NCBI GenBank assembly: GCA_945885475.1
Contig: CAMCYR010000036.1
Coordinates: 1-32,825, forward strand
DNA length: 32,825 nt
Source: Chitinophaga pinensis
GTDB taxonomy: Bacteria; Bacteroidota; Bacteroidia; 2-12-FULL-35-15
Direction of reading: 5' to 3'
Part shown: positions 847 through 13,837 of the stretch, piece by piece
How positions within the stretch are numbered: the stretch's first letter is position 1
Layout: the number at the start of each line of letters is the position of its first letter
Translations under genes and position numbers: made by a program
Notes under the pieces: model-generated
The model's database searches: none
The model's input: the letters and a program-made list of their open reading frames with translations, nothing else
Told to the model about the DNA's origin: nothing

Positions 847-3800
847 TTATTTTTGATCGTTAGTTTTTGATTGATTTAATAACAATTGAATTTGTTTTTG
901 TTGTACTTCAGATTGTTTTTTTAATTCTTCAATTTGTGCTTGTTGTTCTTGTATTGCTTTCACAAGTACTGGAAATAACCGATCATATTGAATAGATTTA
1001 ACATTCACGTCATCACTTAATTTTTCTTTAGTTAAAGAATTGTATTCCCCGGGAAGTACCGCATCTTTTACCATTTCAGGAATCACTTCTTCAATTTCCT
1101 GTGCAATAAATCCCCATTGCTTTTCTTTTGGAAGATTAATATGTTTATATTTTTCAGTATCAAAATAATATTGATGCGTTTTTATTTTCAATACTGTTTC
1201 TATTGCATTTATATTTAAATCTGAAATATCTCTTTTTAAATTTTTATCCGAAACAGTCCAAGCTGTTCCTGATGTTGAAAACTGCATACCATTTGAGTAA
1301 ATGCCATAATTTACAGACGCACCAGAAGCAGACCCATATACACCAAAATTTGTTCCTCCAGCACCAGAAGCTTGCCCAAAAACACCATAATGTACACCAG
1401 CAGTACCACCTGAATTAGTAATATATGCTCCGAATGAATTACCAGGATGGGACGAAGGAGTTGCACTACTATTAATACCTACATAACTGGCATAAAATTT
1501 ACCTCCGAAACCATACCCGGGTGCATTTTCTGATTTAGCAACAATTCCTACACCATCAACAGTCCCAACATTTGTATTTTCAAAATAGGATGAAATTGCT
1601 CCTGCAGTAGCTTCTGTAACATGCAATTTATATAGAGGAGCAAGACCGGGAGCAGTTCCACCAATACCAACATTTCCACCAACCGTAACAGCTAATTTAG
1701 GTCCGCCATTGTTTGTATAAATAAAGAAAGGGTGATTTGATTGAGTTCCTATGCTGGCAGAAGTCCCAGCATTTATAAAAGTACTCATTACAACGGAACC
1801 ATCCGTTTGATTTAATCCATAATTAGTTGCATTAATATCAATTGGATAATTAGGAGCAGCAGTAATTAAACCACCAACCTTCAACTTATTCGTTATAAGC
1901 ACGTTACCATTATTAAAAAGTCCTGCCCAATTTGTACTCGTTGAACCAGAAGCATCAGCAAAAATACCAATTGCTTGTCCTGATCCTGTAACATTTGCAA
2001 CACCTTCTACCCCTCTCGCTCCACCTGTTGCACTTGTATTTGTTGCTGCAGCTTCAACGCCAACAACGGTGGTTCCAGCAGCACTCGCGTTTGCTTGAGT
2101 ATAAATACCATAATTATTAGCAGTTCCTGAAGCAGATGAAATTGCATAAACAGAAGCATTTATTCCAGCACTACTTGTAGATGTTTGATGTTCGAAATAA
2201 GAAAGAGGTCCAGCCGAAGTTGTATTTTGATACACATGCAATTTACCTGGCCCTGCAGGGGTAGAAGTACCAACACCAATTGTTGTTCCGTTATCAAATA
2301 GCAAAGAAGTAGAAGTAAGACCTGTGCCTGCAGCATTCCATTTAGGGATATAATTTGCGGTTCCGTTACTTGTTAAAGGTGAACCGGCTACAACGGAAAG
2401 TAATCCTGAAGCATTGGCAACAACTGTTCCTCCGGGTGCTAAACTATTTAAAGTTATTTTTCCTGCTATCGGTTCAATAGACATGGCAGTAATGGTTGTA
2501 CCGGGAATTTTTACAATTTTTAATCCTCCATCAGTATCAGATCCTATCCGCCATTCTGTTCCTCCCCCGGTATTTTCAATCCCGATTGCAGATTGCCACA
2601 GAGAAGATCCGGAAACAACTAACCCTGCACCAGGACTTGTTGTGCCGATACCTACACTTGATCCATTATTAAATAAATTACTTGAAGCTGTCCAAACACC
2701 TGCATTATTATATAATGTTTGTCCGTTTAATCCGGCAGGTAATAAGCCTGTAATTGCAGCAGTTCCGGCCGTAGTCAAACGACCAAAAACATCTACTGTA
2801 AAAGTCGGTATTTGAGCCGCACTTCCATATACACCCGGCGTTACACCTGAGCTGGCCATTGAAATAATAGGAGCTGTTCCACCTGAACTAATTATTGGCG
2901 TAGTTGCTGTTACGGATGTTACAGCCGTTCCTGAGGAGATGCTTACCCATGCACTTCCATTGTAATAATAAAACTGACCAACAAGATCATACACTAATAA
3001 TCCTGTTACTGGACTTGCAATAGCAAGTCTTTGTGCTGATGTCATACGTGGAATCAAAATACCTTTACTTGTTGAAACCATCTCTAACAATGCAGAAGCA
3101 ACAGGAGTGTTTGTTCCGATACCTACTCTTCCTAATCCATCAATATTAAAAAAAGATGTCAGAGTTGCTGCAGTTCCATCTGCGCCGCCATTCAAATGAA
3201 AACCTAAGTTGTCAGCTATTACTTCCCAGTCGAAAGCTGCTGCATTCGATCGTTCTAAGCGAAAAGAAGTTGTTGTTGGTTGTGAAAGAGTCAACAGTTG
3301 TAAGGGACTTGTTGAACCTATCCCCACATTTCCTCCGTTATTAAAAATATTACTACTATTAACAACCCAAGATGTTCCGTTCCAATAAGGAGTATTTCCT
3401 GCAGCTGCACCTGTTGTCAAAAAGCCTGTCGCTCCGGTTGCACCAACAGCACCAGCCGTTCCAGCCGTTCCCGTTGCGCCTGTTAATCCTGTTGCTCCGT
3501 TAGCACCGGTTGCACCAGCAGTTCCAGCAGTTCCCATTGCACCTGTTAATCCTGTTGCTCCGTTAGCACCGGTTGCACCAGCAGTTCCCGTTGCACCTGT
3601 TAATCCTGTAGCACCTGTAGCACCTGTTGCACCTGTTGCTCCTGCAGATCCTGCAGTACCCGTTGCACCCGTTAAACCAACAGCACCATCAACACCGGTT
3701 GCACCTGTTAATCCTGTAACACCCGTTGCTCCTGCAGATCCTGCAGTACCCGTTGCACCCGTTAATCCAATAGCACCATCAACACCGGTGGCGCCTGTTA

Positions 3801-4449
3801 ATCCAGTAACACCTGTTGCACCCGTTGCACCCGTTAATCCGGTTACACCTGTTGCGCCTGTTAAACCAATAAGACCATCAACACCTGTTGCGCCAGTAGC
3901 GCCAGTAGCTCCGGTTAATCCAACACCTGTTGCTCCAGTAGCGCCTGTTGCACCATCAAGTCCTGTTGCACCAGTAGCACCAATTAAACCTGCACCGGTC
4001 GGACCAGTTGGTCCCGGAACAGTGGAAACTGGACCAGTAGCACCGACTGGACCATTCGCGGCATAAAAAGCATAGGGAACACTCATCATCTGACTTGCGC
4101 CCATTGATACAAAACCACTCCCATCGTTCACTTCCACTTCCAAATATTTATCACCACTTCCCCAGTTAACAGTCGAAAATGTTCCTGAAACAGGTATTCC
4201 CATTCCAATTTTTGCAGTAAACAAACCGTATACATTTGTAGTGACAGCATGTGTTTCCTGGTAGACTACTGCCCCCGCTGCTGTAAGATCATGAATACTA
4301 AATCTCGCAGTTAAAGAAGTGCTTATCAACGCTGCACCAGCATTATCGCGGGCAACTGCTTGATAATTGATACCTTGAGGTGGTGCTTGCGCAAATAATG
4401 AAGCAACTGCTAATAATAGCGTAAAAAGGAGAATTGAAGATTTTTTCAT
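847..4449 (-). CDS. Collagen-like fibre protein with C-terminal S74 self-cleaving chaperone domain
   Basis: This is a complete 1200-residue secreted protein. It has a signal peptide (about residues 1-20), the [14 protein letters not shown]-terminal domain (21-130), and a collagen-like Gly-X-Y tract (about 132-343). A long beta-rich shaft follows with repeated NVGIGxTSP motifs. The C-terminal domain begins [11 protein letters not shown] and contains [16 protein letters not shown] and a terminal Gln/Lys-rich coiled coil. That end matches the S74 intramolecular chaperone of phage tail fibres and endosialidases. The catalytic Ser/Lys pair spaced five apart is present as S1067 and K1072, so cleavage before S1067 would release about 134 residues after trimerisation. 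No T9SS sorting domain is seen. It is probably a trimeric surface or extracellular fibre. It sits just upstream of its paralogue. I found no clear promoter in the 339 bases upstream. Confidence 0.88.
3413..4055 (-). repeat. Collagen-like low-complexity coding tract
   Basis: The tract encodes roughly 210 residues of GATG/GLTG/GVTG triplets. On the plus strand it reads as monotonous cctgttgcaccagt-like units. Long identical stretches recur within the tract and in the partial gene at 1-120, making this a substrate for slippage and gene conversion. Precise unit borders are arbitrary. Confidence 0.75.
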
Positions 4450-4788: not shown

Positions 4789-6579
4789 TTAATAGGGGAT
4801 TTTTAACCCAATCACAAGAATATCATCTACTTGGTCAAGAGGGCCTCGCCATTCTTCAATAGTTTTGTTCAAAATTTCTTTTTGCTTTTCAATTGGCTCA
4901 TCATGCACTTGCATCAAAAGATCACGGAAGTGATTTGCCATAAATTTTTTACCATTCGGACCGCCAAATTGATCAGCATATCCATCTGAAAAAATATAAA
5001 CCGAATCACCTTTTTGCAACTGAACAGTATGATTAGTGAATTTCTTTTTCTCTTCTCCTAAAAACAATCCTATAGGAAACTTATCGGCTTTTGTTTGAAT
5101 TAATTGCCCCTCTCTTATAAGATATAGAGGATTATAAGCACCCGCATATTCTAATTCTAATTTTTTAAAATCAATCGTACAAAACGAAATATCCATACCA
5201 TCTTTTGCCTGTGAATCCTGATGTCCGTGATGTAACGTTTCACTGACTCCTTCGTTCAATCGGTCTAAAATTTCGGACGGTGACGTACTCTTATTGCTAT
5301 TCACTACATGTTTCAACAAGTTATAACCAACGATCGACATAAAAGCACCCGGAACACCATGCCCAGTGCAGTCGACAGCAGCAAATAGTGATTTACCATT
5401 TTTCTCATCCATCCAATAAAAATCTCCTGAAACAATGTCTTTTGGCTTATATAAAACAAAAGAATTGGGCAAAACGCGCTTCACTAAACTGTCTGGAGGA
5501 AGTATCGCTTCCTGAATACGTTTGGCGTACTTTATACTGTCTGTTACATGCTTGTAGAGTACTTCCAGCTCTTGATTCTGCGTTTCAATTTCTTCTTTTT
5601 GACGTACAACCTGTTCTGTCCGCTCAATAACTTTTGCTTCTAATAGGCGCTCGTTTTCACGCAGATCTTCACGCATTTTCAATAAAGCAGCACCTAAAGT
5701 ATCCTCTTTACTCAAGGCGCGGTAATGGGAATCAAAATTTCCAGAACCAACCTGTTTTGCAAATTCAGTTGTCCTTGCCATTCCATCAACCAGATCGTTC
5801 AATGCAACCGACATTTCACCAATTTCATCATTACGGTCTTTGATATGCTCTGTAGGAAGGACTCCCCTACCCATCATTACTAGAATTTTTTTCAATTGAT
5901 GAATTGGACGGACAATTGTTCTAACAGTAAAAATGGCAATAAGAATTGCTCCAAAAGGCAAGATAAAAAACAACCAGATCACAATCTTTTGAAGAGCTCC
6001 GAACGATTGTAACATCTCATCCGAATTATCAAGCGCATTTTTATTTTGTTTGTCAATAAGTAAACTTAAATTTTCATTGATCACATCATTTTGTGTGTCC
6101 AGTTCTTCGAAGGGTAACTGGGCAATAAATTTTATATTAGGATCATTATACGTATCGAAGGAATTCAATGTTTCCATAACATCTTCATCGTAGCTTTTGA
6201 ACATTTGTTCGATCAATGCCAAAATACCTTCAATACTTTCTTGTTCCTCTTTATTCCAGTTGGCTGAATACGCTTTTATTTTCGCTTTTAAAGTTGGATA
6301 TTCATCTTTTATAAGACCACGTAATGCTTTTTTATCGATCGCATCATCACCTGTTTGGACATAGAACCACTTAGTAATTAAAAATTTAGACCGAATAAGG
6401 AGGTAATTTAATTCTTTAAGAGAGGCTACTGAGGGGTTATAGATCTCGGTTACCTGATCCGTTTTTTTACGACTATCATTGAGGGTAATATTGGTAAGCC
6501 AAAAGGCTACAATTACCAAAAGGATGATTACACCAAAGCCTAATCCTATCTTTCTCCCAATTGTAAATCTTAAATTCAT
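4789..6579 (-). CDS. Membrane HAMP-domain PP2C/SpoIIE-type serine phosphatase
   Basis: The 596-residue sensor phosphatase has a first membrane helix at about 11-30 and a helical periplasmic sensor (31-198, four-helix-bundle type). A second helix at 199-219, a HAMP domain (about 220-270) and a coiled coil (about 300-360) follow. The C-terminal PP2C/SpoIIE domain has the expected metal ligands: D386 in GDFYW, D403 in DCTGHG, D532 in SDGYADQFGG and the DD pair at 585-586 in VDDILVIG. It should dephosphorylate a Ser/Thr-phosphorylated cytoplasmic partner, typically an anti-sigma antagonist, in response to an envelope signal. No such partner is encoded nearby. It is last in a minus-strand operon, 25 bases after the TPR gene and behind the YfiR-like gene, which suggests those periplasmic proteins control it. 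Confidence 0.88.
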   Translation of the reverse strand: MNLRFTIGRKIGLGFGVIILLVIVAFWLTNITLNDSRKKTDQVTEIYNPSVASLKELNYLLIRSKFLITKWFYVQTGDDAIDKKALRGLIKDEYPTLKAKIKAYSANWNKEEQESIEGILALIEQMFKSYDEDVMETLNSFDTYNDPNIKFIAQLPFEELDTQNDVINENLSLLIDKQNKNALDNSDEMLQSFGALQKIVIWLFFILPFGAILIAIFTVRTIVRPIHQLKKILVMMGRGVLPTEHIKDRNDEIGEMSVALNDLVDGMARTTEFAKQVGSGNFDSHYRALSKEDTLGAALLKMREDLRENERLLEAKVIERTEQVVRQKEEIETQNQELEVLYKHVTDSIKYAKRIQEAILPPDSLVKRVLPNSFVLYKPKDIVSGDFYWMDEKNGKSLFAAVDCTGHGVPGAFMSIVGYNLLKHVVNSNKSTSPSEILDRLNEGVSETLHHGHQDSQAKDGMDISFCTIDFKKLELEYAGAYNPLYLIREGQLIQTKADKFPIGLFLGEEKKKFTNHTVQLQKGDSVYIFSDGYADQFGGPNGKKFMANHFRDLLMQVHDEPIEKQKEILNKTIEEWRGPLDQVDDILVIGLKIPY

Positions 6580-6604
6580 AAAGCTATCAGCTATTTATCG
6601 TTTC

Positions 6605-7492
6605 TTACTTTCCAATTTGCTCTAATTTTTGCTTAAATTCATTCGATTTCTCTTTTTCATTTAAACTAAAATAGATACCCGATAAACCCAACAACGTTTC
6701 TTTCTTATTTGGATCGAGAGCATATGCTTTTTCCATAAATGGAAGTGATTGTTTAAATAAATTAATTGAATTATCCTGAACGTCATTCAATGCAACAATA
6801 TCTAAATCGTAATCAGATTGATTTATAAGATTCACCGCTTGATTATAATACAAAATACCCATATTATAATTTGCGTTTATATTGTTCGGATCGAATGACA
6901 ATGCTTTGTTGTAAGATGCTTTTGCATAATTCAGAAAGTCGGTCTTACCTTTTCTGTCAGCTTCATAAATGCGAGTATAAACTGTTGCCATGGCATTAGC
7001 AAAATCAATCTCTTTTTGTTTGAAATTTTCTGCTGAAGGATCAACCAAAAGGTAATATTCACGGAATATGTCAAAATTATTTACCGCAATTTTATAATCG
7101 ATCGTGTCTAAACTTGCAGCTGCATCATTGTATAATGTTGTAGCGAGGTATTTAATATTCTTGATATTTTCAGTTACATTTTCTTGTGTCGTATCAATTG
7201 TAAGTGATTTTTTGAAAGAAATAAGTCCTTCAATTCGAGAAGAAGATTGTTTATTCGATTTCTCACTTTGATTATAAATCGTTTTGTAAATAAAACCACG
7301 CACATACCATGCCTGACCGTCTGACTGGGTTTCAGAGTGTAAAATAGCAACATCAATAGTCGCTTTCGCACTATCTAATTTACCTTGCTGCAAGAACGTA
7401 TACGCAGCAGTCACCCGAGACTGTTGCGCATTTAAAGACACCGCCAAAAAAAGCAGTAATCCAAAAATGATTGTTCTTTTAGTTTTTAACAT
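6605..7492 (-). CDS. Secreted TPR-repeat protein
   Basis: The 295-residue protein has an N-terminal signal peptide (MLKTKRTIIFGLLLFLAVSLNAQ) and is otherwise helical. TPR-like repeats are recognisable, most clearly AKASYNKALSFDPNNINANYNMGILYYNQA in the middle and a last repeat ALDPNKKETLLGLSGIYFSLNEK near the C-terminus. It is probably periplasmic and acts as a protein-protein scaffold. It lies between a YfiR-like gene (8-base gap upstream) and the HAMP-phosphatase gene (25-base gap downstream), so a role linking the two is inferred from position only. Confidence 0.8.
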   Translation of the reverse strand: MLKTKRTIIFGLLLFLAVSLNAQQSRVTAAYTFLQQGKLDSAKATIDVAILHSETQSDGQAWYVRGFIYKTIYNQSEKSNKQSSSRIEGLISFKKSLTIDTTQENVTENIKNIKYLATTLYNDAAASLDTIDYKIAVNNFDIFREYYLLVDPSAENFKQKEIDFANAMATVYTRIYEADRKGKTDFLNYAKASYNKALSFDPNNINANYNMGILYYNQAVNLINQSDYDLDIVALNDVQDNSINLFKQSLPFMEKAYALDPNKKETLLGLSGIYFSLNEKEKSNEFKQKLEQIGK

Positions 7493-7500
7493 TTAACATC

Positions 7501-8031
7501 TTATTTAACTTGAACAGCCATATCAACAAGTGTTGACGCAACCTTCAATTTATACTTTTCAATATTCGATCTGTTCAACTCAATTTTTTGTTTATTTCCA
7601 TCAACAAAAAAGTTAATTCCGGAACCTTTTGTTGCTAGTCCGGATTTATCTGTGACGATCAATGCACTTTTACCTTTTAATTTACCTAATACACCATTAA
7701 GCTGTGAAGAGTTGTCAGAAAGAATGTAAACGATATGACACTTTGCACAATCAGCAGGAGTAAAAACCGATTTAATTTCAAATTTTTGAGTCCCAACAGT
7801 TTTAGAACTTGCCATTTTATTGAGTTCTGTTACAAGGGGAGTATTTGTTCCCAAGACACCAACCACAAAATTCCCTTCTTTATAAGAAGCCGGCCACTCA
7901 ATATACTTGGTGAAATTGTATATATAGATGGTCTTAATCTTTGCATTCGCCTCTTCAGATTGATCAGGAAGAACAACCATCCAAGAGGATAGGATCATAA
8001 CTGAAACAAATATGGAGAGTAATTTCTTCAT
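7501..8031 (-). CDS. YfiR/DUF4154-family periplasmic protein
   Basis: The 176-residue protein starts with a signal peptide ending near LPDQSEEANA. The body has the family's landmarks: IKTIYIYNFTKYIEWPASY followed by FVVGVLG, then ADCAKCHIVYIL (the 'CHI' strand), then a GLATKGSGINFFVDGNKQKIELN segment. The C-terminal helix resembles LKVASTLVDMA. In Pseudomonas, YfiR is a periplasmic repressor of the membrane cyclase YfiN. Here the membrane output encoded in the same operon is a HAMP-phosphatase rather than a GGDEF protein. The two Cys of ADCAKC could form or exchange a disulphide. It is first in the operon, with a candidate -7 box 52-59 bases upstream. Confidence 0.82.
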   Translation of the reverse strand: MKKLLSIFVSVMILSSWMVVLPDQSEEANAKIKTIYIYNFTKYIEWPASYKEGNFVVGVLGTNTPLVTELNKMASSKTVGTQKFEIKSVFTPADCAKCHIVYILSDNSSQLNGVLGKLKGKSALIVTDKSGLATKGSGINFFVDGNKQKIELNRSNIEKYKLKVASTLVDMAVQVK

Positions 8032-8220: not shown

Positions 8221-9915
8221 TTATAATCCGGCCAACGTTTTTTCTTTAGGAAATTTAACAGTATAAGTTAAAACTATTTTCTTGGTTTCTTTGGGTTTTA
8301 AATTAAATTTCCAATTTACGATTCCGCTTACTTCATCCAACTCTGCTCCTGACGATTCAACTAATGATACAACGATTTCCTTTGTTTGCGAAACGGGTAT
8401 TTGATCTTGTAAATTAAAAATTGATGCGGAAGATTTGGTATTCCGTATTGTAATTTCATAAGAAATAGTTTTTACTTTTTCTTCTCCAATCAACTTTTCT
8501 TTTGTTTTATCTTTTTGTTTTACACGCGTTACAACCATATTTTTATCTCTCCCTAATGTCAGGTCCAATGTATCTGATAATGAACTTGGATCAATATAAG
8601 ACTCTCCAACAAAAGTACCGTCAAAATAAATATTGGCAGAACCCGCAGCTAAATTTAACTCATCCCAGTTCGTAATTTTCGCTACTAAAAAAGCATCTTT
8701 ATCTAATTTAGGAGCAGCGAAATGGGTATAATGTGCAGGAATATCTTTTGTTTGAATCGCTACAAAATGTGTTTTACCATCGCAAGGAATACTATACGCC
8801 AACTTGATGTCATATTCGACAGTAATAATGTTTTCCTTCGCAACTGTAAAATCAGCTGCAGTAAGTGCCGCAAATTCTGAACTCTGGTTTTGATAAGCCA
8901 CTGAACCAGTGCTTTTACTTTGAGGGATCACTGCATCTTTATCATTCTCGGATTGCTTACGTTTATAATCATATGCGTATGGATTGTAATAGTTCAACCA
9001 CCAAGTATTCAATACAGGTTTTACATTACTTTGATTCGGACTTGCAGTTGAAAGCGTTAATTTCACATCTGTCCAATCAATTCCGGTATTTTGATAAACC
9101 TGCGCTTTATAGGTCAATTGCATATTTCCGCCTGCACCCTTCGCTCGTAAATCATAAGAAGGTGTCCAGCCTGCATTTTGTAGCATGTAGTTTATATTCA
9201 TTGTTCCGTTTGTTGCCAAATCAGCAGAAACAGTTACGATCACGCTGTAATTTGTCTCGTCTTTTACAACTTCTCCTGTATTTGAATTATATGTCTGCAA
9301 GGCAAACACATCAGACTGCATACGCTGCTTTCTTACATTTACGAGATATTCTTCTTTTTTTAATTTAAGCAACTCTGAATTTATATTATTCAATTTTTCA
9401 CGCAAAAAGGTCAAGGCTTCTTTTACGAGATTCAGCGTATCTTTTTTTGTTTCACCTTTTATAATCCTGTTATTAAGCAATGTATTTTTTTCAATAGTTA
9501 AGCAGGCTTGTTTCGAAGAAATATCCTCAAGATCAAAATCAATCATAACCAATGAATCCTGCAACATTTTTATCTGTTTTACATTTTTGAGATTATTCGT
9601 TTGATCTGTTTTTTTAGGTTCTGGATATTTTATGCTATGCTGCACATCCATAATCACAAAATTGCCGAAACCACTAGCTTGAATGCTCCGGACATCTATT
9701 GCTGATTCTAAACCTTCAAAGACAAGTGCTGTCATGCCGGCATTAACACTCACCAAAGAACTACGATAAATCTGCGCTCCTTGAGTAAAAATAGTAACAT
9801 TCTCAATTTTTGATTTTATTTTCTTTTCAGAAGAAGCAACTGCTACCAATGAAATAGTGCATGCGATCAATGTCAGAAATGCAGATGCAATAAGTTTTTT
9901 TTTTAGCGTTTTCAT
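8221..9915 (-). CDS. DUF4139/DUF4140 (mucoidy inhibitor MuiA-like) protein
   Basis: The 564-residue protein has an N-terminal signal or anchor segment (about residues 8-28). A DUF4140-like beta domain begins ENVTIFTQGAQIYRSSLVSVNAG (about 38-110), and a charged coiled coil follows (about 110-205). The long DUF4139 domain contains the hallmark NYMLQNAGWTPSYDLRA and QVYQNTGIDWTDVKLTLSTA motifs. These families are named for a mucoidy inhibitor, but the biochemical role is unknown. Order and length fit the family well. It is transcribed alone, ends at a strong terminator and is divergent from the sigma factor gene; the 134-base gap between them must hold both promoters. Confidence 0.85.
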   Translation of the reverse strand: MKTLKKKLIASAFLTLIACTISLVAVASSEKKIKSKIENVTIFTQGAQIYRSSLVSVNAGMTALVFEGLESAIDVRSIQASGFGNFVIMDVQHSIKYPEPKKTDQTNNLKNVKQIKMLQDSLVMIDFDLEDISSKQACLTIEKNTLLNNRIIKGETKKDTLNLVKEALTFLREKLNNINSELLKLKKEEYLVNVRKQRMQSDVFALQTYNSNTGEVVKDETNYSVIVTVSADLATNGTMNINYMLQNAGWTPSYDLRAKGAGGNMQLTYKAQVYQNTGIDWTDVKLTLSTASPNQSNVKPVLNTWWLNYYNPYAYDYKRKQSENDKDAVIPQSKSTGSVAYQNQSSEFAALTAADFTVAKENIITVEYDIKLAYSIPCDGKTHFVAIQTKDIPAHYTHFAAPKLDKDAFLVAKITNWDELNLAAGSANIYFDGTFVGESYIDPSSLSDTLDLTLGRDKNMVVTRVKQKDKTKEKLIGEEKVKTISYEITIRNTKSSASIFNLQDQIPVSQTKEIVVSLVESSGAELDEVSGIVNWKFNLKPKETKKIVLTYTVKFPKEKTLAGL

Positions 9916-10029
9916 ATTTTTTATCAGTTTAAATGGAACAACTTATTTTAAATTCATCAATAGGATGCATTCAATTAAAAAATTCCATACCGATTTATTT
10001 AGTACTATGTATTTTGCCAATAAAATGTC

Positions 10030-10037
10030 TATTTTTG
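10030..10037 (+). promoter_or_regulatory. Candidate -7 box of the sigma factor gene
   Basis: TATTTTTG fits TAnnTTTG exactly and ends 12 bases before the ATG at 10050. Upstream, TATG at 10006-10009 is a weak -33 match with 20-base spacing. If used, the leader is very short. Confidence 0.35.
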
Positions 10038-10049
10038 TATATATATGAT

Positions 10050-10634
10050 ATGCATACTTCTCTATTAAATAGCTTTGACGATTTACAATTGGTTGCTGAA
10101 TACAAGCAAACCAATAACAATGCCTTAGTTGGCGAATTACACCGCAGGTACACCCATCTGATTTTTGGTGTTTGTATGAAATACTTAAAAGACGAGGACG
10201 ATGCGCAAGATGCCAGTATGCAAATTTTCGAGAAATTATTGGTAGATCTGAAAAAACATGAGGTACAGCAATTTAAAGCCTGGCTTCACATGGTTTGTAA
10301 AAACTTTTGTTTGATGCAACTTCGCTCAGGGGCTTCCAAAATTAGACGAACTAAAGAAATGCAAAAAGATTTGGTATCATTTATGGAATCAGATACCGAG
10401 CTGCATCTTACTACCGAAAACGCAAAAGAAATTCAATTAACTTTTATGGAAGAATGCATAAAAGGTCTTAACAATGAACAGAAACTGTGTGTTGAATTAT
10501 TTTTCTTACAAGAAAAAAGCTATCAGGAGGTAACTGAATTAACTGAATACAGTCTGAATAATGTAAAAAGTTATATTCAAAACGGGAAACGAAATTTAAA
10601 AATTTGTATTGAAAATAAGAGTGCAAAACATTAA
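10050..10634 (+). CDS. ECF-type RNA polymerase sigma factor
   Basis: The 194-residue protein starts MHTSLLNSFDDLQLVAEYKQTNN. Region 2 is visible in YTHLIFGVCMKYLKDEDDAQDASMQIFEKLL. Region 4 is visible in LNNEQKLCVELFFLQEKSYQEV followed by an HTH, LTEYSLNNVKSYIQNGKRNLKI. An in-frame ATG at 9933 would add 39 hydrophobic residues unlike any sigma domain and would read through the likely promoter, so I prefer 10050. The stop codon overlaps the next start by one base (TAATG), so the sigma factor and its probable anti-sigma factor are translationally coupled. It is expected to be held inactive by that protein and released by an envelope signal. Confidence 0.88.
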   Translation: MHTSLLNSFDDLQLVAEYKQTNNNALVGELHRRYTHLIFGVCMKYLKDEDDAQDASMQIFEKLLVDLKKHEVQQFKAWLHMVCKNFCLMQLRSGASKIRRTKEMQKDLVSFMESDTELHLTTENAKEIQLTFMEECIKGLNNEQKLCVELFFLQEKSYQEVTELTEYSLNNVKSYIQNGKRNLKICIENKSAKH

Positions 10635-12058
10635 TGAACAAAGAAACTAAACATACCATTTATTCAAGTTCTGATTGCTTCTCTGAAAAGATGTTGTTCG
10701 ATTACATCGACAATACATTAAGTCAGGAAAAAAGGCATTTGATTGAAAAACATCTCCTCGACTGCGAGTTATGCGCTGATGCGCTGGAAGGTTTAGAATT
10801 AGTAAAAGACAGAGCACGGATAGGAGTCATAAAAGACACGATCAATAAACGATTAATAAGCACAGAAATAAAACAAGAACCGAAAGTCATTTCGTTTAAT
10901 TATAAGCTTGTATTTTCAATAGCCGCAACAATTGCTTTATTGGTTGTTGGTGTTTTCTTCTTTAATAAAATGACTTTAAAAGAGGTCGCAATGTCAGATT
11001 TGGCTGTTTTAAAAACAGAAGAAAACGATGCATCATCATTTCCTTCACAACTTAATGAAAAAGAGATAAACACTTCTGCAACGTTGAAAACCGGAACAGA
11101 TGAAAACAGTGATGAAATAAGATCCGAGAAAACTAAAAGTGTAATCAATGATCAAGAAATTGCCAAGAGTGGCGATGAGAAAAAACAAAAGCGAAGCAGC
11201 AATTCGAGCGGAGTTACGAAAGCCTTCGATTTTGAGGATCAGGTTACTGTCAGAAACAATAATGATGAAGATGATAAAACGGAAGATGCAGCGCAAATTC
11301 ATGACATCGTACCTTCAATTGTCGCTCAAAATAAGGCTGAAGTAAAAGAAGTTATAGCTCTAGAGTCTACGATCTCACAAAACGGCTATGCAGAATCAGA
11401 TAAAGATTCAAAGTCAGATCAGTTAAAAAATAGTGAAGAAGTAGTAGTATCCAGCGTGGAAACTTTATCATTGAAAAGTACTCGTGGGCAGACTCAAGGT
11501 AAGAGCAAATCGAAAGTGGAACAAGCTGAACAGTTTAATAAATCTGAAAAAGTACAGGAAGAATCAAAAGGAAAATACAGGGCTACTTCAAAGAAAGACA
11601 ATAAAGCGAATACCGATTCAAATGCTGTAGGAAATGTTGCGTATGAACCGCAAAGCACATCACCAGATATAGAAACATTGAAAATTGAAACAACCAGTTC
11701 AACAACTGTATCGATTCCGGCAACAGACTCAATTGAACAAACGTATACTGTTGTAGATAAGATGCCTGAATTTCCAGGTGGAACAGTTCAAATGCTGAAA
11801 TTTATTCAAAAAAACATGAAGATAGAACGAAACATGAACCTCGAAAATTCTGCATCTTCAACGAAAGTTTTTGTTCAATTTATTGTTGAAAAAGACGGAA
11901 ACATTCGCGATCCAAAAATTATTAAAGCAGGTAATCCTCTCACAGATAATGAAGCTTTAAGGATCGTTAAAATGATGCCTAAATGGATTCCGGGAAAACT
12001 AAATAATAAAGCAGTAGCTGTTCGCTATGTTCTTCCTATCCAATTTGAGCTGAAATAA
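10634..12058 (+). CDS. Anti-sigma factor fused to a C-terminal TonB domain
   Basis: The 474-residue protein has three parts. Residues 1-60 are a zf-HC2 anti-sigma zinc domain with H40, C44 and C47 in HLLDCELC. One membrane helix lies at about 92-110 (VFSIAATIALLVVGVFFF). A long Ser/Lys/Glu-rich, probably disordered periplasmic stretch (about 115-370) leads to a TonB C-terminal domain (about 375-474) with PEFPGG, FIVEKDGNIRD, EALRIVKMMPKWIPG and a final LPIQFELK. TonB domains contact outer-membrane receptors, so this arrangement could connect receptor or envelope state directly to sigma release. The topology (N-terminus in, TonB end in periplasm) agrees with both domains. It overlaps the sigma gene by one base. 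Energy coupling through ExbBD versus a purely sensory or structural use cannot be told from sequence. Confidence 0.87.
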   Translation: MNKETKHTIYSSSDCFSEKMLFDYIDNTLSQEKRHLIEKHLLDCELCADALEGLELVKDRARIGVIKDTINKRLISTEIKQEPKVISFNYKLVFSIAATIALLVVGVFFFNKMTLKEVAMSDLAVLKTEENDASSFPSQLNEKEINTSATLKTGTDENSDEIRSEKTKSVINDQEIAKSGDEKKQKRSSNSSGVTKAFDFEDQVTVRNNNDEDDKTEDAAQIHDIVPSIVAQNKAEVKEVIALESTISQNGYAESDKDSKSDQLKNSEEVVVSSVETLSLKSTRGQTQGKSKSKVEQAEQFNKSEKVQEESKGKYRATSKKDNKANTDSNAVGNVAYEPQSTSPDIETLKIETTSSTTVSIPATDSIEQTYTVVDKMPEFPGGTVQMLKFIQKNMKIERNMNLENSASSTKVFVQFIVEKDGNIRDPKIIKAGNPLTDNEALRIVKMMPKWIPGKLNNKAVAVRYVLPIQFELK

Positions 12059-12136: not shown

Positions 12137-12152
12137 GTAAAAAGTTTTATTG

Positions 12153-12701
12153 ATGCATTATATCAAAAACATTTTACAACGATCTATTCTTTCAGGACTG
12201 CTTATTATAGCTGTTTCTCTTAGTTCCTGCCGTTCACATAAAGAAGTTTCCAAAACCAATTCCAGCTCGTCAAAGTCAGGAAAAGTTAAAGAAAAATATG
12301 CGCTTGTACTAAAAGTAGATGATAGCAAAATTGAAAATATAAAACTATATACTTTCATTGATGAATGGTATGCCGTACCTTATAAATACGGTGGCAACAC
12401 CAAAAGTGGAATCGACTGTTCAAATTTTACGGCTACGCTATATAGTTCGATCTACAATCAATCCATAAGCGGATCGTCCTCAAGTATTTTTGAAAAATGT
12501 AAGGCTGTTTCAAAAAGTGATCTGGAAGAAGGTGATTTAGTATTTTTTAAGATCGATGGAAATAAAATTTCACATATTGGAGTGTATTTACAAAACAACA
12601 AATTTGTTCATGCAACCACAAAAAAAGGTGTGATGATTAATGATCTGGATGAACCGTATTATAAAAAATATTATTTCAAGTCTGGAAGAATTAATAACTG
12701 A
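12153..12701 (+). CDS. NlpC/P60-family cell wall hydrolase lipoprotein
   Basis: The 182-residue protein carries a lipoprotein signal with lipobox LSSC (C26). A Ser/Lys-rich linker is followed by a C-terminal NlpC/P60 domain with the Cys-His-His triad: C89 in GIDCSNF, H141 in ISHIGVYL and H153 in FVHAT. GDLVFFKI is the usual strand before the His. It should cleave peptide stems of peptidoglycan from the outer membrane or periplasm. An in-frame TTG one codon earlier (12150) is possible, but the ATG at 12153 is the more likely start. Its TGA overlaps the next ATG by one base, so it is coupled to the membrane protein downstream. Confidence 0.87.
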   Translation: MHYIKNILQRSILSGLLIIAVSLSSCRSHKEVSKTNSSSSKSGKVKEKYALVLKVDDSKIENIKLYTFIDEWYAVPYKYGGNTKSGIDCSNFTATLYSSIYNQSISGSSSSIFEKCKAVSKSDLEEGDLVFFKIDGNKISHIGVYLQNNKFVHATTKKGVMINDLDEPYYKKYYFKSGRINN

Positions 12702-13837
12702 TGAAAGAAATATCCTGCTCACACATACGATTGATTACACGTATCATTGCAATTGCATGTATTACAGGAATGTTACTGTCCTATAAACTTTGGTCGGGCG
12801 AAAGAAGCTTTCCATTAAGTCCTGTTTTAGAATTGATACCGTCACTTCCGAAACCATTTGATAGTATTCTTTTCGGTTTTACATTGATCCTGCTTTTACT
12901 CATCAGTATATCACGAAATCCACAAAAGTACATCATTGCTTTTTTAGTGTGTGCATTGATACTAGCCATACTCGATCAAAACCGCTGGCAACCGTGGTTT
13001 TATCAATACCTTTTAATGTTTTTTGTTCTGTCCTTTTTTAATTATAGGTGTGATGATACCAGACATCTGGAAGCGATCAAAACAATTTTCAAGCTCCTGA
13101 TTGCTGCTGTTTATTTTTGGAGTGGTCTACAGAAAATGAATCCAAATTTTGTAGCTGACACTTACCCTTGGCTGATGGAACCGCTTGCTGATAGAATTGG
13201 CGAGACAACGATAAAAAATATAGATTGGTTTGGAAATCTATTTCCGATCATAGAAACATTAACCGGGATCGCTTTATTTTTTTCACCCGTTAAGAAAGTC
13301 GCAGTTGTATTGCTGCTCCTCATGCATCTTTTTATTTTATTTGTATTAGGACCGTTCGGACACAACTACAATCCTGTAGTGTGGCCTTGGAATATTGCAA
13401 TGATGGGAATTTCATTCATTCTATTTTTCAATAATGAATCCATCTCCATTTCTCAAATTATGGAAACATTACGTTACCACTCGTTAAAAATCGTATTTGC
13501 CCTTTTTCTAATGCTCCCGCTATTTAATTTTGTTAATTTATGGGATTCCTATTTATCTCATAACTTATATTCAGGGAATACAAGTAATGGAGTGATATAC
13601 ATATCGGATGCAGTAGAAACCAAATTACCTGAGAAGATCAGAAAATATTCTCTGGGCGAATTAAATCAAAATCAGATCACGATAAAATATTGGTGTATGA
13701 TGGAACTTGGAGTTCCTGCATATCCTGAAAAAAGAAATTTTGAAAGTATTACAAGTACATTTTACAAATATGCAACCGATTCCTCTGAGGTGTATCTTCT
13801 CTATACTCCAAAACTGAAAGTAAGCGACCGTCCATAA
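12701..13837 (+). CDS. Polytopic membrane protein, HTTM/DoxX-like
   Basis: The 378-residue protein has about seven to eight hydrophobic helices in the first 280 residues and a soluble C-terminal stretch of about 100. The segments YFWSGLQKMNPNF, a later LLMHLFILFVLGPFGHNYNPVVWPWN, and LWDSYLSHNLYSGNT resemble the HTTM (vitamin K carboxylase-like) and DoxX superfamilies. I cannot place it in one family with certainty. It is translationally coupled to the NlpC/P60 lipoprotein gene (TGATG overlap). Function is unknown. Confidence 0.78.
   Translation: MKEISCSHIRLITRIIAIACITGMLLSYKLWSGERSFPLSPVLELIPSLPKPFDSILFGFTLILLLLISISRNPQKYIIAFLVCALILAILDQNRWQPWFYQYLLMFFVLSFFNYRCDDTRHLEAIKTIFKLLIAAVYFWSGLQKMNPNFVADTYPWLMEPLADRIGETTIKNIDWFGNLFPIIETLTGIALFFSPVKKVAVVLLLLMHLFILFVLGPFGHNYNPVVWPWNIAMMGISFILFFNNESISISQIMETLRYHSLKIVFALFLMLPLFNFVNLWDSYLSHNLYSGNTSNGVIYISDAVETKLPEKIRKYSLGELNQNQITIKYWCMMELGVPAYPEKRNFESITSTFYKYATDSSEVYLLYTPKLKVSDRP

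Follow-up and report, generated by a model that had tools for sequence, protein, structure and literature searches.

The window analysed here, a stretch of 32,825 nucleotides from Chitinophaga pinensis (Bacteroidota), carries the gene of an extracytoplasmic function (ECF) sigma factor followed directly by that of a putative anti-sigma factor, which starts with a zinc anti-sigma domain and ends in a TonB fold. This TonB-ended anti-sigma factor represents a real and recurrent architecture that is undescribed in the literature searched; the search, which was sparse in subscription journals, returned no description of anti-sigma factors that carry a TonB domain. Base 10634 is common to the stop codon of the sigma gene and the ATG of the anti-sigma gene, confirming the one-base overlap reported in the original prediction for this DNA. 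Table 1 lists the features discussed below.

Table 1. Features of the sigma/anti-sigma locus and its surroundings, with positions in the window.
Feature	Position	Strand	Basis
ECF sigma factor, 194 amino acids	10050..10634	+	Pfam, NCBIfam, genus orthologues
Anti-sigma factor with TonB-fold C-terminus, 474 amino acids	10634..12058	+	Pfam zf-HC2 and TonB_C; 23-row alignment; structure model
Zinc anti-sigma domain, residues 1-76	10634..10861	+	Alignment, structure model, ChrR fold match
Membrane helix, residues 90-121	10901..10996	+	Helix in model; hydrophobic stretch in sequence
Disordered tether, residues 122-360 (239 residues)	10997..11713	+	Predicted local distance difference test (pLDDT) below 50 throughout
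TonB-fold head, residues 366-474	11729..12055	+	Pfam TonB_C; VIA-align
ECF-type promoter TATGGAATT-N12-GCATC before muiA, divergent to sigma gene	9964..9989	-	Conserved; 77 copies
MuiA-family protein (DUF4139/DUF4140), probable target	8221..9915	-	TIGR02231, 301.9 bits; promoter 48 bases before ATG
TATTTTTG element just 5' of sigma ATG	10023..10045	+	Present in most upstream stretches of relatives compared
NlpC/P60 peptidase, co-conserved downstream gene	12150..12701	+	Pfam, 94.7 bits; 18-member cluster over 21 loci

The sigma protein has the composition of an ECF factor, with sigma regions 2 and 4 recognised above their cut-offs (Pfam Sigma70_r2, 31.1 bits; Sigma70_r4_2, 31.7 bits), region 3 absent, and a match of 67 bits to the NCBIfam sigma70-ECF superfamily (cut-off 42.9). 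Its start is placed at the ATG at 10050; a longer alternative begins at 9933, but relatives begin at the equivalent of 10050. In the genome collection, the order is represented by one genus with 36 genomes, and orthologues of this sigma factor, 55-100% identical, were found in 27 of them.

The anti-sigma protein combines four parts that had in essence been foreseen: a zf-HC2 domain, one membrane helix, about 250 disordered residues (239 with pLDDT below 50 in the model) and a C-terminal TonB domain. The zf-HC2 match covers residues 19-47 (Pfam, 25.9 bits; cut-off 22.2); the zinc signature HxxxCxxC (H40, C44, C47) and the further ligand C15 are all invariant in 23 sequences. The structure model, built from 23 sequences, contains confident anti-sigma helices at residues 18-76 and a confident C-terminal domain, and residues 9-62 match ChrR bound to SigE (2z2s_F; VIA-align Z score 6.7). 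At the other end, TonB_C matches residues 411-473 with 40.6 bits (Pfam; cut-off 24.6), while NCBIfam tonB_Cterm reaches 25.0 bits, slightly below its cut-off of 27.1. The domain was originally described as full; it does exceed the Pfam cut-off, but the first 16 of the 79 profile positions are left unmatched (the match runs from 17 to 79), since the window protein has only a degenerate version of the YP...G start that the family conserves.

The fusion of the two ends is not a product of chance, since 23 orthologues from the genus can be aligned over their full length, and C15, H35, H40, C44, C47, G422, P449 and W451 are invariant among them. The core of the membrane helix is likewise invariant in the aligned proteins, and the tether is scarcely alignable between orthologues. 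By textbook scaling, a disordered chain of 239 residues has an average span of about 14 nm and a stretched length of 86 nm, and is therefore long enough to cross the periplasm. Judging from the gene order and the one-base overlap, the N-terminal domain would bind and inhibit the neighbouring sigma factor. Among the alignments, A1 was made without L023, L028 and L031 (L028 and L031 are cut), and A5 without L071, L082 and L121 (cut or short).

The architecture survey suggested at the outset covered the genus and the class. The zf-HC2 and TonB ends lie in a single frame in 24 of the 36 genus genomes, and the gene is cut by contig ends in G008 and G021. The N-terminal chassis was matched at an E value of 1e-5 in 138 of 395 class genomes; far ends were classified for relatives chosen for spread over families and not randomly. 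Outside the genus, a dedicated profile recovered 21 TonB-ended proteins from 12 further family codes, or 13 including that of the window, with Pfam TonB_C in 18 and zf-HC2 in 13. Among the other class-level relatives, Pfam detected TPR_2 in 45 of 72, making TPR a commoner far end than TonB among the related anti-sigma factors of the class. Such varied ends on one N-terminal chassis are as expected of exchangeable sensors. For instance, the Hymenobacter busanensis protein consists of zf-HC2 and TonB_C, and in three Pontibacter proteins and one from Rhodocytophaga (L217, L223, L229, L231), a CarboxypepD_reg-like domain precedes TonB_C, which Pfam recognises in all five of these proteins; the CarboxypepD_reg-like domain also stands at the start of many Bacteroidota receptors. 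Additionally, the TonB-ended L137, L140 and L154 (family code f40) possess an anti-sigma domain without zinc ligands.

A single origin of the TonB-ended type finds no support in the sigma tree, which shows repeated gain or loss. On this tree, which was built by a quick method and has many weak forks, the type of far end changes 11 times over 118 rows, 10 times over 113 rows after removal of cut or short sequences, and 7 times over 106 rows when long branches are also removed, at least four of these changes being forced by well-supported branches. Within the genus itself, G026 (L062, G026:C21) carries the orthologous sigma gene with a TPR-ended anti-sigma factor, a far-end swap. Together with the repeated gain and loss, this swap points to one anti-sigma chassis with exchangeable ends. 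The same replacement of the TonB fold by TPR, even within the genus, could also mean that the C-terminal domain merely caps the protein as a folded unit and senses nothing, and that damage to the tether or membrane is read by proteases alone. We consider this quite improbable, given that the core of the head is strongly constrained (G422, P449 and W451 invariant in 23) beside a scarcely alignable tether.

TonB domains gave the best fold matches to the head, and several of these were receptor-bound. VIA-align superimposed it on FoxA-bound TonB (6i97_D) with a Z score of 8.7 over 88 aligned residues at 2.6 Å, and on BtuB-bound TonB (2gsk_B) with a Z score of 7.5. As a single query, the window protein found no sequence match among solved structures; a profile search of the same structures retrieved Helicobacter pylori TonB. 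The head is not a working TonB, because the TonB N-terminus is missing: the segment F-E-x-R/K-N/H-K-x-Y-G-A-Y, which all but two of the 36 stand-alone TonB-domain proteins in the genus possess (34 of 36), is absent from the window protein, and since the zf-HC2 start stands in its place there is no sign of ExbB/ExbD coupling. Energised TonB action by this protein is thus unlikely, and the early suggestion that TonB action might be made conditional on sigma release is not supported. For a working energy transducer, powering receptors once sigma is released, only the TonB fold speaks; with the N-terminus of a TonB absent and a zinc anti-sigma domain occupying its position, such a role is hardly credible.

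Relative to the 36 stand-alone TonB-domain proteins, the fused heads of the genus retain the core in full (G422, P449 and W451, each 1.00) and lose conservation at Y397 (0.65), P398 (0.48), G410 (0.09), K470 (0.13) and F471 (0.04). The loss is focused at residues 397-410 and 460-474, with a mean of 1.37 bits over 23 columns vs 0.38 over the 59 others; these segments match published contacts, but they were fixed after the per-column table had been seen, so a p value for the difference is not clean. In FoxA-TonB, the primary contact is a backbone beta-augmentation by TonB residues 332-337, with side contacts from R266 and R271 (PMC6699858), and in E. coli TonB the region around residue 160 is described in a review as the site where TonB boxes bind (PMC9249621). 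In a mapping of our own, based on the aligned ranges of the fold comparison, these contacts would fall near the last strand and the YP segment of the head. Because the primary contact involves the backbone, strand pairing by the C-terminal strand could still occur even though the usual side contacts are not retained; in the model, the strand geometry is preserved and the conserved side chains are mostly gone. In fused heads elsewhere in the class, the G is retained in 71% and F471 in 81%, and receptor binding may therefore be likelier there than in the window protein. The proposal that one protein links sigma to a receptor accordingly stands as far as the zinc domain, tether and TonB-fold head are concerned, and is weakened by the loss of most receptor-facing conservation. 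Direct sensing of receptor state by the head is conceivable.

An indication of what the system may control comes from a promoter motif. The pattern TATGGAATT-N12-GCATC is retained upstream of muiA amid otherwise poorly conserved spacers. It precedes all 11 close MuiA genes (at least 64% identity) for which upstream sequence was available, one of them in the variant TGTGGAATT; all 11 lie on sigma contigs. It precedes none of 16 distant DUF4139 paralogues in the 400 bases upstream of each. The window's own genome contains five exact N12 copies and none of the reversed pattern. Across the genus, 77 copies occur in 29 of 36 genomes, and across the class 57 copies in 29 of 50 chosen genomes, with no reversed control in any genome of either set. 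With up to two mismatches allowed, none of the 254 upstream regions that do not belong to target families contained the motif, and the nine matches in the background set of 263 regions belong to eight muiA genes and one alpha-2-macroglobulin-like gene.

Seventy-three of the 77 genus sites were annotated (G035:C2:495860 was merged as identical context, and G012:C224, G033:C55 and G035:C13 were left out), and 70 of these 73 distinct sites have an open reading frame (ORF) of at least 100 amino acids starting within 500 bases. Their targets encode TPR/PD40 proteins (15), alpha-2-macroglobulin-like proteins (15+8), stand-alone TonB (11), MuiA (8), ExbD followed by TonB (5), DUF4349 proteins (2), OmpA (1), YfbK/VWA (1) and two small families with 2 sites each. 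Thirty of the 57 class sites were inspected by eye and included tonB (2), exbD (2), muiA (1) and alpha-2-macroglobulin-like starts (4). Stand-alone TonB loci were also fetched irrespective of the motif to avoid circularity; 9 of 13 short-type genes carry it with at most two mismatches, 39-45 bases from the start codon, and a tenth (L435) has the exact motif halves with an N11 spacer. To judge by these families, the target genes appear to serve envelope care, and the motif before stand-alone tonB and exbD-tonB supports a link to TonB biology. A check for a TonB-dependent receptor under this sigma factor had been recommended; none is encoded in the window (21 ORFs of at least 130 amino acids scanned). 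Two side observations concern individual sites. At L379 (G027:C65:11307-11332), the motif occupies the muiA position divergent to sigma with no ORF of 100 amino acids within 500 bases, as if muiA had been lost, and L409 and L362 share related starts (ISIPKPC.EDWNK) behind the promoter, one of them ending in a Por secretion tail.

The presence of TonB genes behind the promoter bears on a reading in which TonB boxes are contested between the head and genuine TonB. Under TonB shortage or high receptor demand, free TonB boxes would capture the head and sigma would be released, and the raised stand-alone tonB would close a feedback loop. Receptor-bound TonB as the best fold match, stand-alone tonB and exbD-tonB among the targets, and the fact that backbone beta-augmentation needs no particular side chains (PMC6699858) all agree with such a gauge. 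Against it, columns invariant in stand-alone TonBs fall in the fused heads of the genus (the YP...G and F471 positions above), and 57 of the 73 targets are not TonB genes. Moreover, the prediction that tonB would be targeted solely in genomes with a TonB-ended anti-sigma factor was not upheld: the class genome G078 (L403), which encodes a TPR-ended relative, has the motif before tonB, so a TonB target does not depend on a TonB-ended partner. The gauge is possible but, on balance, unlikely. We are similarly doubtful of the supply loop that would follow, in which a mock TonB head gauges unmet outer-membrane demand and raises genuine tonB along with periplasmic protection proteins.

Assignment of the promoter to a sigma factor rests first on proximity. 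Among the 57 class sites, six have an anti-sigma gene of the same family no more than 2 kb away (217-1538 bases), when about 0.08 would be expected using 62 loci, an upper guess; together with the muiA sites, this proximity links the motif to the sigma family. Of the nine genomes with a window-type sigma and no paralogue, seven contain the motif, so the window-type sigma may suffice, and in the window's genome we infer that the window sigma itself reads the promoter. Several observations weigh against this assignment. A sigma paralogue, 43-48% identical, stands beside a TPR-ended anti-sigma factor in many genomes, that of the window included, and relatives of both kinds, TonB-ended and TPR-ended, carry the motif; the regulon of the window may therefore belong to either sigma or to both. 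The motif also occurs in both genomes that have only the paralogue, and in three of seven where neither sigma was found (G006, G022 and G023). In G022, the contig with a close MuiA gene stops short of the sigma site; G006 and G023 are 82% and 99% complete, and the motif without either sigma is unexplained in both. Conversely, three of 27 sigma-bearing genomes (G004, G013, G026) lack the exact motif. The motif was also not seen upstream of the sigma gene in the compared upstream stretches of relatives, and autoregulation through it was rejected on that ground. The TATTTTTG element at that position contains TAnnTTTG, which we take to be a housekeeping-type -7 box. A strict rule that the motif occurs only where the window-type sigma is present was not upheld (24 of 27 genomes with it vs 5 of 9 lacking it; Fisher p 0.05); when genomes with at least one of the two sigma factors are pooled, the motif is found in 26 of 29 of them vs 3 of 7 others (Fisher p 0.016).

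Beyond the computed architecture, conservation, fold, and promoter family with its genes, we infer a ligand for the head, a proteolytic release step and the pairing of sigma with promoter. The cytoplasmic zinc domain of the membrane-tethered anti-sigma factor would hold the neighbouring ECF sigma, and the TonB-fold head, on its flexible periplasmic tether, would act as a passive, non-energised sensor, most likely using its exposed C-terminal strand to contact a partner in the envelope. A change in this contact, whether loss or a pull by an outer-membrane protein, would expose the anti-sigma factor to stepwise proteolysis and free the sigma. The sigma family would then transcribe the TATGGAATT-N12-GCATC promoters of an envelope-care regulon of alpha-2-macroglobulin-like, MuiA, TPR/PD40 and DUF4349 proteins, stand-alone TonB and ExbD-TonB. 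RsiV reportedly binds lysozyme directly and offers a precedent for sensing by an anti-sigma factor. As a whole, the reading of a tethered, non-energised TonB-like sensor that holds an ECF sigma driving envelope care strikes us as reasonably probable.

The surroundings of the pair were compared over 21 loci of the genus. Downstream, most loci have the NlpC/P60 peptidase and a DUF3556/MauE-like membrane protein (12150-13837, + strand, in the window; clusters of 18 and 15 members), and the opposite-strand neighbour before it is either MuiA (9 loci) or a DUF4154/TPR/SpoIIE block. The window also contains this block beside the sigma gene, at 4789-8031 (- strand), comprising a HAMP-SpoIIE phosphatase, a TPR protein and a DUF4154 (YfiR-like) protein with clusters of 16, 17 and 17 members, and further away, at 847-4449 (- strand), a 1200-amino-acid collagen-repeat protein with an endosialidase-chaperone end. 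The peptidase is co-conserved with the pair but may have its own promoter within the 91-base gap after the anti-sigma gene. A wall peptidase after the pair in most loci, combined with relaxed receptor-facing segments and a retained core, would also suit a TonB fold that attaches to peptidoglycan or to a protein of the periplasm, in which case the signal would be wall or envelope geometry and not receptors. Some TonB C-termini bind peptidoglycan, although the literature search gave no such paper. Since no peptidoglycan-binding family was matched by Pfam and the peptidase gene is missing from some loci, we regard such a wall anchor as improbable.

These results suggest that Bacteroidota build transenvelope switches on one chassis with TonB-fold, TPR, or CarboxypepD_reg plus TonB ends, the last in Pontibacter and Rhodocytophaga. 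Together with its genes, the promoter offers a ready-made reporter set. To our knowledge, how TonB supply is matched to dozens of competing receptors is an open question, one answer to which could be tested with this system in cultured strains. If the supply loop were true, it would constitute a transenvelope sensor whose input domain copies the machine whose gene it controls.

Among known systems, the window protein shares its C-terminal fold and core residues with Bacteroidota TonB proteins, but has no N-terminal TonB motif and relaxed receptor-facing segments. With ChrR, RsrA, RslA and RsiW it shares a zinc-finger anti-sigma domain, in both family and fold. The sensing parts of those proteins are cupins, redox-active cysteines or short periplasmic tails, whereas that of the window protein is a TonB fold on a long tether. 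FecI/FecR/FecA and FpvI/FpvR/FpvA similarly combine an ECF sigma, a transmembrane anti-sigma factor directed towards the outer membrane, and TonB biology, and FecR-type anti-sigma factors are cut by Prc and RseP (PMC9249621). Those systems, however, use three separate proteins as receptor, TonB and anti-sigma factor, while here the TonB fold lies within the anti-sigma factor; no FecR domain was among its Pfam matches up to an E value of 1, and the window holds no adjacent TonB-dependent receptor with a signalling domain. Of the known designs, the Dma family comes closest, with a beta-barrel as its far end. Dma proteins hold their sigma factor and extend from the cytosol as far as the outer membrane (PMC13088901), and a similar pair in Phocaeicola responds to envelope damage (PMC9308784). 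The window protein resembles the Dma family and the ecfO-reo type pair of Phocaeicola vulgatus in its N-terminal anti-sigma domain, single membrane helix, long disordered tether, C-terminal domain on the distal side of the periplasm, adjacent ECF sigma gene and occurrence in Bacteroidota (PMC13088901; PMC9308784). This likeness is one of architecture, Dma partners being sigma factors of group ECF21, and the absence of Dma proteins from the Foldseek and VIA matches has no bearing on the relationship. In contrast to the Dma outer-membrane beta-barrel, which anchors in the membrane, the TonB fold would work only by binding a partner, and thereby represents a second kind of far end for transenvelope anti-sigma factors.

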